DNA of 64,000 nt, from the NCBI GenBank assembly GCA_024711345.1, contig JANJTA010000008.1:1-64000 (forward strand), read 5' to 3'. Positions 10,202 through 51,067 of this stretch are shown one piece after another. Each line of letters opens with the position of its first letter. The stretch's first letter is position 1. The notes under the pieces were generated by a model. That model was not told the origin of the DNA and did not search any database. It saw nothing but the letters and a program-made list of their open reading frames with translations. Made by a program: the position numbers and the translations under genes. This DNA is from Rhodanobacter sp. (GTDB taxonomy: Bacteria > Pseudomonadota > Gammaproteobacteria > Xanthomonadales > Rhodanobacteraceae).

Positions 10202-10346
10202 TAGCCGACGTCCCTGCGGAGCAGCTGGATGCGATGGATACGGCGGGGCGGTGGAAGCTTCACGCTGCGTCGATTCGTCCCTGGGCGGATGAGCGTGAGT
10301 ATAAGCGGGGCGATGCGGTGGCTGGTGAACCAAGGGCCAAGAGCGA

Positions 10347-10497
10347 CTCCTCCCCAGCCCTCCCCGGCGATGCAGGGGAGGGCGCAAGCGTGGCCTTCAT
10401 CTTGCGCGGAGGAGGAGCGAAGCGCTGCGGCATCGGAGTACCCGCTCTTGCTCCTCCCCCTGCGTGCAGGGGGAGGCTCGGAGGGGTGGAGCGCTTC
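10347..10497. repeat. G/C-run palindromic repeats (family B, copy 1)
   Basis: The 298-base gap between the SLC13 permease and trmB holds two palindromes. One has arms CCCTCCCC/GGGGAGGG at 10358-10365 and 10375-10382. The other has perfect 10-base arms CCTCCCCCTG/CAGGGGGAGG with a 4-base loop at 10453-10476. The second has the same 10-4-10 design as the palindrome found inside murE. No gene was seen in this gap. Confidence 0.75.
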
Positions 10498-10499
10498 GC

Positions 10500-11201
10500 T
10501 CAGACCTTGCGATAAAGCAGATCCCACACGCCATGCCCCAGCTTCAGTCCACGCCGCTCGAAGTGGGTCTCGATGCGCCATGCCGGTTTTTCGGCGTATT
10601 GGCCAAGGGCGACGGCGTTGCGCCAATCGGGTGCCGCTTCCATCGTTTCCAGCATGTGCTCGGCGTAGGGCTGCCAGTCGGTGGCCAGATGCAGCAGGCC
10701 GTGGGGGGCCATGCGCGAGGCGAGCAGGGCGACGAATTCGGGCTGGATCAGGCGCCGCTTGTGGTGGCGCTTCTTGTGCCACGGGTCGGGAAACCAGATG
10801 CGCGCCTCGGCCAGCGTGTCCGGGGCGATTTCGTGCTGCAGCACTTCCACCGCATCGTGCTTGTACAGCCGCACGTTGCGCGCGTCGCGCGCGGCCAGTG
10901 CGTTCATCAGGCGGCCCACGCCGGGGCCGTGCACCTCGACGCCGATGAAGTCGCGCCCCAGGTCGTGCTCGCTGGCCCAGGCCAGCGCCTCGCCGTTGCC
11001 GAAGCCGATTTCCAGCACCAGCGGCGCGGCGCGACCGAAGCTCGCCGCGAAATCGCGCGGAGCGCCCTGGTAGTCGATGCCGAAGCGCGACCACAGCGTG
11101 TCGAACGCGCGCTGCTGCGCCGGCGTCATGCGTCCTTCGCGCAGCACGAAGCTGCGGATGCGGCGCATGTATTCGGGGGTGGTGTCGTCGGTCGTCGGCA
11201 T
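10500..11201 (-). CDS. trmB: tRNA (guanine-N7-)-methyltransferase
   Basis: A 233-residue methyltransferase that forms m7G46 in the variable loop of tRNAs using SAM. The SAM-binding motif LEIGFGNG is at residues 63-70, and the family signature WFPDPWHKKRHHKRR follows at about 136-150. C-terminal THFERRG is also typical. The ATG at 11201 is preceded by TACAAT and exactly six bases, with no ribosome site, which suggests a leaderless mRNA. It is followed on the same strand by the SLC13 gene after a 298-base repeat-filled gap, so it is probably monocistronic. Confidence 0.95.
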   Translation of the reverse strand: MPTTDDTTPEYMRRIRSFVLREGRMTPAQQRAFDTLWSRFGIDYQGAPRDFAASFGRAAPLVLEIGFGNGEALAWASEHDLGRDFIGVEVHGPGVGRLMNALAARDARNVRLYKHDAVEVLQHEIAPDTLAEARIWFPDPWHKKRHHKRRLIQPEFVALLASRMAPHGLLHLATDWQPYAEHMLETMEAAPDWRNAVALGQYAEKPAWRIETHFERRGLKLGHGVWDLLYRKV

Positions 11202-17630: not shown

Positions 17631-17705
17631 CCGCTGCGCAGGGGGAGGGACGGACCCGGAGCCGTGCGCTCTGCTCCCTCCCCTGCATCGCGGGGGAGGG
17701 AGTCG
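17631..17705. repeat. G/C-run palindromic repeat (family B, copy 2)
   Basis: The gap between the convergent kinase and ilvE genes holds arms CTCCCTCCCC (17673-17682) and GGGGAGGGAG (17692-17701) around a 9-base loop, plus a CAGGGGGAGGGA half-site upstream. It resembles the elements at 10347-10497 and inside murE. Confidence 0.75.
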
Positions 17706-49508: not shown

Positions 49509-51067
49509 GCAGCGGCCACCTCGACCAGTTGCTGCTGGGCATTGCCGACGCGCCGCTCGCCGCGGCGCCGGACGTCGGCCGCATCGTGGTCTCCGGCCTG
49601 ACCCTCGATTCGCGTCGGGTGCAGCGCGGCGATGCGTTCTTCGCCCTGCGCGGCAGCCAGGCCCATGGCATCGTGTTCGCTGCCGGCGCCGTGCAGCGCG
49701 GTGCCCGCGTGGTGCTGGCGGAAGCGCCAACGCCGGGTGAGTCCCTTCCCCTGCCTGCAGGGGAAGGTGCCGAAGGCGGCAGGGGTCGACTGCCGCAGGC
49801 AGTCGGTGAGGCTCCCGTGCTGTGGATCGACGGCCTGCACAACCAGGTCAGCGAGATCGCCGCGCGCTTCTACCGCCGCCCCAGCGAGTCGATGCGGATG
49901 GTCGGCGTCACCGGCACCAACGGCAAGACCTCGTGTGTGCAGCTGCTGGCGCAGGCGTTGACCCTGCTCGGCCACCGCGCGGCCTCGATCGGCACGCTCG
50001 GCGCCGGCGTGCATGGCCAATTGCACGAAGGCGAGCGCACCACGCCCGACGCGGTGACGGTGCAGGCGCTGCTGGCGGAGTTCCGCGATGCGGAAGTCAG
50101 CCACGTGGCGATGGAGGTTTCCTCGCACGCGTTGGAGCAGGGCCGCGTGGCGGCGGTGGATTACGAGGTGGCGGCATTCACCAACCTCACCCGCGATCAT
50201 CTGGATTACCACGGCAGCATGGAGGCCTACGGCGCGGCAAAAGCGAAGCTGTTTGCCTGGCCGGGCCTGCGCAGCGCCGCGATCAACGTCGACGACGCAT
50301 TCGGCCGCGAACTGGCGACGCAATTGCCGGCCGACGTGCAGCGCCTGCGCTTCAGCATGGCCGGCGACGACGAGGCGGAAGTTGCCGCCAGCGCGATCGT
50401 CACCTCGGCCGAAGGGCTGGCGTTCCTCTTGCGCACGCCGTGGGGCACGCGGGCGCTACGCAGCCAGCTGATCGGCCGCTTCAACGTGGCCAACCTGCTG
50501 GCCGTGGTGGCCTGTCTCGGTGCGCTGGACGAGCCGTTCGCGCGCATCGTCGAAACGGTCGAGCAATTGCAACCGGTGAACGGGCGGATGAGTCGGCTCG
50601 GCGGCGTGCAGGGTCAGCCGCTAGTGGTGGTCGACTATGCGCACACGCCGGACGCGCTGGAGCAGGCGCTGGCCGCGGTGCGCGCGCATTGTGCCGGCAA
50701 GCTGATCTGCGTGTTCGGCTGCGGCGGCGAGCGCGACGCGGGCAAGCGCCCGCTGATGGGCGAGATCGCGGCGCGGCTGGCCGACGTGGCGATCGTCACC
50801 GACGACAACCCGCGCGGCGAGGACGGCGATGCGATCGCGGCGCAGATCGTCGCCGGCATGGCGGCGGCGCGCGCGATGGCGGTGGAGCGCGACCGCGCGG
50901 TGGCGATCGCCGATGCGCTGCAGCTGGCGCGCCCGGGCGACGCGGTGCTGATCGCCGGCAAGGGTCACGAGACCTACCAGGACGGCGCCGCCGGCAAGCG
51001 GCCGTTCGACGACCTGGCGGTGGCGCGCGCCGTGCTGGAGCGGATCGGCAGGGAGGCACGTCCATGA
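49505..51067 (+). CDS. murE: UDP-MurNAc-tripeptide ligase (meso-DAP adding), with repeat-encoded insert
   Basis: A 520-residue ligase that adds meso-diaminopimelate to UDP-MurNAc-dipeptide with ATP. The P-loop is GTNGKTSCV, and DNPRGED is the meso-DAP signature. Between about residues 78 and 101 it contains GESLPLPAGEGAEGGRGRLP, which has no counterpart in the usual fold and is encoded by a palindromic repeat (49744-49767 and 49777-49798). The frame stays open, so the enzyme probably works with a loop insertion in the N-terminal domain. The ATGA overlap with ftsI and the GGGAGG before murF keep it in the operon. Confidence 0.95.
   Translation: MSSGHLDQLLLGIADAPLAAAPDVGRIVVSGLTLDSRRVQRGDAFFALRGSQAHGIVFAAGAVQRGARVVLAEAPTPGESLPLPAGEGAEGGRGRLPQAVGEAPVLWIDGLHNQVSEIAARFYRRPSESMRMVGVTGTNGKTSCVQLLAQALTLLGHRAASIGTLGAGVHGQLHEGERTTPDAVTVQALLAEFRDAEVSHVAMEVSSHALEQGRVAAVDYEVAAFTNLTRDHLDYHGSMEAYGAAKAKLFAWPGLRSAAINVDDAFGRELATQLPADVQRLRFSMAGDDEAEVAASAIVTSAEGLAFLLRTPWGTRALRSQLIGRFNVANLLAVVACLGALDEPFARIVETVEQLQPVNGRMSRLGGVQGQPLVVVDYAHTPDALEQALAAVRAHCAGKLICVFGCGGERDAGKRPLMGEIAARLADVAIVTDDNPRGEDGDAIAAQIVAGMAAARAMAVERDRAVAIADALQLARPGDAVLIAGKGHETYQDGAAGKRPFDDLAVARAVLERIGREARP
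49742..49803 (+). repeat. palindromic repeat inside murE (family B, copy 3)
   Basis: Arms CCTTCCCCTG and CAGGGGAAGG pair perfectly around CCTG at 49744-49767. A second pair, GCGGCAG and CTGCCGC, follows at about 49776-49797. The 10-4-10 palindrome has the same design as the intergenic element at 10453-10476. It adds about 20-28 codons without breaking the frame. Confidence 0.85.

Follow-up and report, generated by a model that had tools for sequence, protein, structure and literature searches.

How does a palindromic repeat come to lie in the reading frame of an essential enzyme? The stretch of Rhodanobacter sp. DNA analyzed here (64,000 nucleotides of contig JANJTA010000008.1, henceforth the window) contains a murE gene in which a perfect palindrome lies within the open reading frame, raising the question of whether a mobile repeat has been tolerated there as a peptide or whether an old loop of the protein merely happens to be encoded by palindromic DNA. 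Comparable fusions have been described. The Rickettsia-specific RPEs, which are 105-146 bp long, are palindromes that occur in intergenic DNA as well as in in-frame fusions with conserved proteins, and in one enzyme the effect of such an element was judged to be neutral or slightly harmful; RPE, ERIC and Correia fusions are reviewed in the same source (parts of PMC2229807). Likewise, in-frame intragenic REPs have already been published from several bacteria, including those in tRNA synthetases in X. oryzae, in DnaE in R. conorii and in recB, at roughly the same site in two Xanthomonas (parts of PMC3733652). The in-frame location of a REP in a gene is therefore an already known kind of event, and the first-pass annotation of this DNA, in which such repeats were considered rare and known in Rickettsia, understated this literature. 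The genome-distribution section of PMC3733652 names tRNA synthetases in general, with no mention there of MurE, MetH, IcmF or GcvP. In Pseudomonas, a part of PMC3116915 describes REPINs as inverted doublets, with singlets being their remnants. In the open-access literature we encountered no description of several repeat families using the same loop across species, no paper on the VIPAQAGI type of sequence considered below and no paper with a title on palindromic repeat insertions in Rhodanobacter.

A repeat insert within an intact murE gene

All three Mur ligase Pfam domains are present in the window ORF and its best PDB matches are MurE structures. The palindrome originally reported inside this gene is borne out, with both the core and the second hairpin being exact and lying within the frame (Table 1). 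In comparison to relatives with empty alleles, the net insert is 54 nt, which adds 18 amino acids in frame, and the initial figure of 20-28 extra residues was slightly too high. The ends of the insert can be placed only approximately, because the 5-6 codons replaced by it differ between alleles. The peptide predicted for this region includes ESLPLPAGEGAEGGRGR, and the RNA of the entire insert region is predicted to fold with -40.6 kcal/mol. The second hairpin retains 5 to 8 of its 8 pairs across the murE carriers, and a similar hairpin, GACGCC-GCA-GGCGTC, is found at the equivalent place in the leuS inserts described below.

Table 1. Features of the murE insert and related palindromes in the window
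Feature	Position	Strand	Basis
murE CDS, 520 aa	49505..51067	+	ORF, Pfam, PDB MurE matches, NCBIfam
Repeat-insert region, net +54 nt relative to empty alleles, codes approximately for GESLPLPAGEGAEGGRGRLPQAVGE	49735..49812	+	MurE alignment
Core hairpin CCTTCCCCTGC-CT-GCAGGGGAAGG, perfect 11-bp arms, 2-nt loop	49744..49767	+	Palindrome search
Mini-hairpin GCC-GAA-GGC of the repeat tail	49769..49777	+	Sequence; tail shared by many dispersed copies
Repeat tail GGCAGGGG (GGAAGGGG in most carriers)	49778..49785	+	Comparison of carriers and dispersed copies
Second hairpin CGACTGCC-GCA-GGCAGTCG	49787..49805	+	Exact; common to murE carriers
Intergenic relative, forming an inverted pair with 10357-10383	10453..10476	+	Palindrome and pattern search
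Looser relative between two genes	17674..17702	+	Palindrome search

Filled and empty alleles of MurE

MurE was sought in 120 relatives and found in 117, the genus part being 44 of 45 genomes (designated by G numbers, with G000 being that of the window). The alignment comprises these 44 sequences and those of 26 of the 27 genomes from other genera of the family, G058 being excluded as its match stops short of the loop; it covers one family, with 48 genomes from other families of the order left out. Eight genus sequences (G000, G002, G009, G021, G024, G032, G033 and G040), each of 520 aa, are filled, with a common stretch of 25 residues around ESLPLPAGEGAEGGRGRLPQAVGE. The remaining 36 are empty: most of them have about 5 residues at this position, and G001, G008 and G022 have longer loops with sequence unrelated to the repeat. 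No such insert is seen in 23 of the 26 sequences from other genera. In two genomes of the genus g2 (G045 and G070), a palindromic insert of a similar kind occupies the same loop; that of G070 is TTTCCTTCCCCCGCGCGCGGGGGAAGATGCCCGCAGGGCAGAGGGG, read as FLPPRAGEDARRAEG, and the G045 copy is more decayed. In G069 (L203) the same loop is filled with GGGAATGGGGAATCGGGAATCGGGAAT, a GGGAATC-type insert; this is a direct repeat, and its type also occurs next to a gene in L109.

An old conserved MurE loop, palindromic at the DNA level by accident, would agree with the variable length of this loop across the family and its above-average length in some genera. The first-pass annotation had named occurrence of the insert throughout Xanthomonadales MurE as the sign of such a loop; instead, 36 of 44 genus sequences are empty, close relatives G030 and G035 included, and copies of this DNA are scattered through relatives and occur in six other enzymes, leaving this explanation very improbable. 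Palindromes are prone to assembly error, which counts in favor of an assembly or sequencing artefact; against this, the insert occurs in eight separate assemblies, four of which (G021, G024, G032 and G040) have 1 to 5 contigs, its frame is intact and its substitutions are species-specific, and we give an artefact virtually no credence.

In a MurE tree built without the loop, the eight carriers are not monophyletic: the empty G035 groups with the filled G009 and G021 (support 0.954), and the filled G032/G033 with the empty G026 (support 0.999). Since the carriers do not constitute one clade, any account of their distribution must also invoke loss, transfer or repeated insertion.

Dispersed copies of the repeat

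Within the window, a core pattern in which as many as 3 mismatches were allowed matched only at 49745 and 10454, in comparison to 0.01 matches expected, and the likeness first noticed between the murE core and 10453-10476 is thus not a matter of chance. The resemblance also proposed for 17673-17701 holds only in the sense of a looser relative. The region 10340-10500 displays CTCCCC-type palindromes as an inverted pair between two genes, a REPIN-like layout. Dispersal of the family is seen in the relatives, but the window's own genome (3.8 Mb, 41 contigs) is poor in copies, with a single occurrence of the strict core and, among the matches listed, 5 repeat-family matches at E <=0.05. A 64-nt query has matches at E <=0.05 in at least 37 of the 45 genus genomes; among the matches listed, the richest five have 27 to 32 each and many others one or two, and many of the matches to this query consist of the bare hairpin alone. 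The consensus of the copies is TTCCTTCCCC(C/T)GC-NN-GC(G/A)GGGGAAGG-TGCCGAAGGC-GGAAGGGG, with an alternative form having GCCCGAAGGGC and GGATGGGG. Copies read by eye begin with TTCCTTCCCC or CCCTTCCCC and finish with GGAAGGGG or GGATGGGG, giving a repeat of about 46 nt, and none of those so read has a GTAG/CGTC tag at the foot of the hairpin, in which respect the murE repeat differs from the GTAG/CGTC REP superfamilies.

From the fetched loci we collected 171 unique copies, a set enriched for rich genomes and open-frame matches that consequently provides no estimate of frequency. Codon usage in their 240-nt flanks, scored with a table derived from genes of the genus, some of the tested ones included, was bimodal: 21 copies are coding-through (codon score >=0.42; murE 8, leuS 5, ileS 3, icmF 2, and dnaE, metH and gcvP 1 each) and 149 have a score <=0.08 or no open frame. 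One copy with a score of 0.31 (L390) lies upstream of a start codon and was not counted as coding. Peptide searches yielded further candidates (L151, L152, L154-L157, L159, L160, L162 and L164-L166) that were also dropped, because on reading they turned out to be unrelated sequence, spurious frames or copies located between genes. Thus, 150 of the 171 copies in this non-random sample are not coding-through, the dispersal characteristic of REP/REPIN elements.

With a laxer cut (188 copies, of which the non-coding ones are largely those of the copy-rich G001 and G008), 131 of 167 non-coding copies versus 0 of 21 coding copies were accompanied within 160 nt by an inverted partner, the partners being mostly 22 to 56 nt away. 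The Fisher p of this contrast is ~6e-13, or ~4e-5 with seven gene sites replacing the 21 copies, the copies being non-independent. The same repeat is indeed present between genes, as originally claimed, in the form of dispersed copies in relatives; most non-coding copies resemble Pseudomonas REPINs in forming inverted doublets separated by a short spacer. Within genes the singlet form is no strict rule, because IcmF, MetH and IleS also contain paired repeats.

In-frame inserts in other core enzymes

A search for other coding copies, as suggested by the first-pass annotation, recovered the repeat or its close variants in frame in six further enzymes of relatives, namely LeuS, IleS, DnaE, MetH, IcmF and GcvP. 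NCBIfam backs these names and that of MurE, with the fetched IcmF and MetH fragments scoring under the full-length cut-offs of the equivalog models. LeuS has the repeat in 7 of 45 genomes (G008, G009, G011, G015, G021, G024 and G040), that of the window being without it; G012, missed by the text pattern, was scored as empty from adjoining match coordinates, and the LeuS loop of G022 is 7 aa longer, with unrelated sequence. In leuS of G021 and G011 (L253 and L254), a second sequence, DLQAQxRLRNSVAGPDRGEPQGWGES, is nested in frame in the mini-hairpin of the repeat. These two genomes are far apart in the MurE tree. Among the fetched loci, an exact pattern for the nested sequence matched 4, all in leuS of G021/G011, and it had no match in the window.

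The other five enzymes were compared in 15 of the 45 genomes, chosen by hand and including those with known inserts. IleS contains the repeat or its CTTCTCCC variant in 7 of the 15 (G003, G008, G032, G033, G035, G037 and G040), with the inserts of G035 and G040 extending into a second arm. In DnaE the repeat is in the opposite orientation in two of the 15 (G021 and G040), the G040 copy holding further sequence inside; 8 of the other 13 were read and 5 scored as empty from adjoining coordinates. MetH has the repeat in 4 of 15 (G003, G008, G009 and G032), a different repeat of the CCCTCTCCC type in G035, and is empty in 10. In metH of G032 (L427/L361), one partial and one complete copy of the repeat occupy a single loop (SLPPQAGHTSTSLPPQAGEGARRADGG). 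GcvP has the repeat in 1 of 15 (G008).

The loop of IcmF is occupied in all 15 genomes by one of four sequences. Type 1 is the murE repeat (G032 and G037); type 2 is PSPSGRGTEGEG...NPHPQPLSxxERG or near variants (7 genomes, including that of the window); type 3 is VIPAQAGIASP...KSDSGLRRN (G002, G024 and G030); and type 4 is AERSxxGxVEA (G001, G021 and G026). In the window's genome (G000:C8:11319-11885, L470) the long inverted pair PSPSGRGTEGEG...NPHPQPLSRGERG is in frame in IcmF. Type 2 is dispersed: the pattern CCCTCACCCCNACCCCTCTCCC, in comparison to which the icmF copies are one base longer, has 17 matches in the window's genome versus 0 for the reversed control, with corresponding values of 14/3 in G002, 23/6 in G003, 10/2 in G035, 22/5 in G040 and 6/0 in G009, and no clear excess in G008 (6/6) and G033 (3/2). 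Type 3 is dispersed as well, with 2 to 14 matches to GTCATCCCGGCGNANGCCGGGAT per genome in seven genomes versus 0 in the control. The exact type 4 pattern matched 2 loci, both icmF, and none in the window. The IcmF segment had no solved-structure match at E <=0.001. Unlike in the cases covered by the genome-distribution section of PMC3733652, different repeat families here share one loop.

Reading frame, protein structure and sequence change

At six gene sites (murE, leuS, ileS, dnaE, metH and icmF) obtained by a frame-blind DNA search, the core is read as LPxxAGEG. If the three frames of the core were equal, six sites in one frame would, by simple arithmetic, have a probability of ~0.004; GcvP and further IleS/IcmF copies, found by peptide searches in the LPxxAGEG frame, were left out of this count. 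In DnaE this peptide is encoded on the opposite strand, the palindrome giving an identical reading both ways. All frames are open in four consensus forms of the repeat, and stops occur in 25, 6 and 25 of 146 non-coding copies (forward frames 1-3, the first being that of LPxxAGEG). RPEs have a favored reading frame. In this feature and in its in-frame fusion in conserved genes the present repeat is like the RPEs; compared by description only, it is unlike them in being about 46 nt long, in belonging to Rhodanobacteraceae and in sharing loops with several repeat types.

Modeling of the loop, which had been proposed as a check, placed the insert in a low-confidence stretch. An AlphaFold2 model of the window MurE (29 sequences) has a mean pLDDT of 93.5 and a TM score of 0.85 to E. 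coli MurE (1e8c), and its sole low stretch is residues 81-90 and 91-100 (block-mean pLDDT 62 and 72), between the strands 69-73 and 103-108. The LeuS insert maps to the gap 695-712 of chain 7nua and the DnaE insert between residues 581 and 582 of chain 4jom.

Over 28 carrier pairs, which are non-independent, the MurE insert displays 220 nonsynonymous and 117 synonymous differences, and the rest of MurE 2237 and 2698, respectively; no indel was seen in the insert across these pairs. Judged by these counts, the insert is under relaxed change. The core stem is fully paired (11 of 11) in G000, G009, G021 and G032 and retains 7 to 10 pairs in the other four carriers. Relative to G000, both arms of the G032 stem have changed and yet pair fully, which matches the other subform of the repeat; simple decay explains this less well than gene conversion, a second insertion or maintenance of the hairpin would.

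These data also bear on an adaptive origin, in which the peptide or mRNA hairpin would alter folding, partner binding or translation and would be selected. The intact frame in 8 of 8 MurE carriers, the refilling of loops by different repeats, the complete stems in four carriers, achieved in G032 via changes on both sides, and the stable predicted RNA fold are in its favor; it is opposed by the relaxed nonsynonymous change, the patchy presence with many close relatives lacking the insert and the low model confidence of the loop, and on balance we consider it unlikely.

Link to transposases

Y1_Tnp genes are present in 36 of 45 genus genomes (96 matches). In the 52 of these 96 loci that were scanned, with flanks of up to 1.5 kb, no Y1_Tnp (RAYT) gene was flanked by the murE repeat at E <=0.05, the one exception being a partial match (E 0.037) among the 32 loci scanned first. 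This, together with the retention of coding singlets as peptide, is unlike REPINs. At L136, two matches to the VIPAQAGI-type arm (E 0.001 and 0.022) lie beside one Y1_Tnp gene. Five carriers of the repeat (G009, G013, G014, G021 and G035) have no Y1_Tnp match, and neither a transposition event nor target-site duplications were seen. In 10 of the 15 genomes, the icmF loop has a Y1_Tnp gene at a distance of 3.7 to 8.1 kb (e.g. G000:C8:5552-11885); of the other five, three lack Y1_Tnp, one has it 2.2 Mb away and one has a weak fragment on another contig. Among 12 genomes each, Y1_Tnp lies within 10 kb of murE, ileS and dnaE in 0, 0 and 1, respectively. The proximity to icmF looks like a single inherited island rather than ten independent events, but the loop that it adjoins is the one filled in every genome compared.

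A probable tolerated passenger in flexible loops

Taken together, the murE insert is most probably a copy of a REP/REPIN-like element that inserted without breaking the frame into a flexible loop of the N-terminal domain, where it has since persisted as a neutral passenger. The proposal that a repeat colonizes genes as a tolerated peptide is supported because there are both empty and filled alleles of murE, dispersed copies and six further enzymes with inserts; the presence/absence pattern and dispersal are observed, and from these we infer the movement and tolerance. For the inserts in general, tolerated passengers in flexible loops are the most likely reading. Copies of the repeat would land widely, selection would remove nearly all those hitting genes, leaving those in disordered loops, which presumably accommodate the Gly/Ala/Pro-rich LPxxAGEG peptide without harm. 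The genic copy would mostly be a singlet that may lose its stem pairing in some lineages while retaining the frame. The paired form might move as single-stranded hairpin DNA by means of a RAYT-like HUH transposase, and filled alleles might spread between species by recombination.

Such recombination could even be the main process, with filled loops spreading by interspecies homologous exchange and the repeat being a rare settler rather than a frequent invader. Both the interleaving of filled and empty MurE in the tree (G035 with G009/G021; G032/G033 with G026) and the shared nested LeuS insert of the distant G021 and G011 point in this direction, but inserts in seven genes, several repeat types and the separate g2 MurE insert need many insertions, and we hold this to be a possible though somewhat doubtful alternative. 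Spread by recombination and passenger insertion are compatible.

Implications

We tentatively propose, with somewhat less than even confidence, that in this family a fixed set of disordered loops of MurE, LeuS, IleS, DnaE, MetH and IcmF serves as safe landing pads at which unrelated families of palindromic repeats insert, nest, replace each other and are exchanged between species. If this were true, intergenic selfish DNA would continually supply essential proteins with new peptide, and the icmF loop, adjoining a conserved REP-type transposase island, would be the busiest pad. By way of caution, repeat-like peptides in gene models can be genuine coding sequence. The genus offers a natural experiment, in which the same enzyme occurs with no repeat, one, a nested or a different repeat per loop, and with such paired alleles the question of whether selfish DNA builds protein becomes testable outside the obligate intracellular bacteria.
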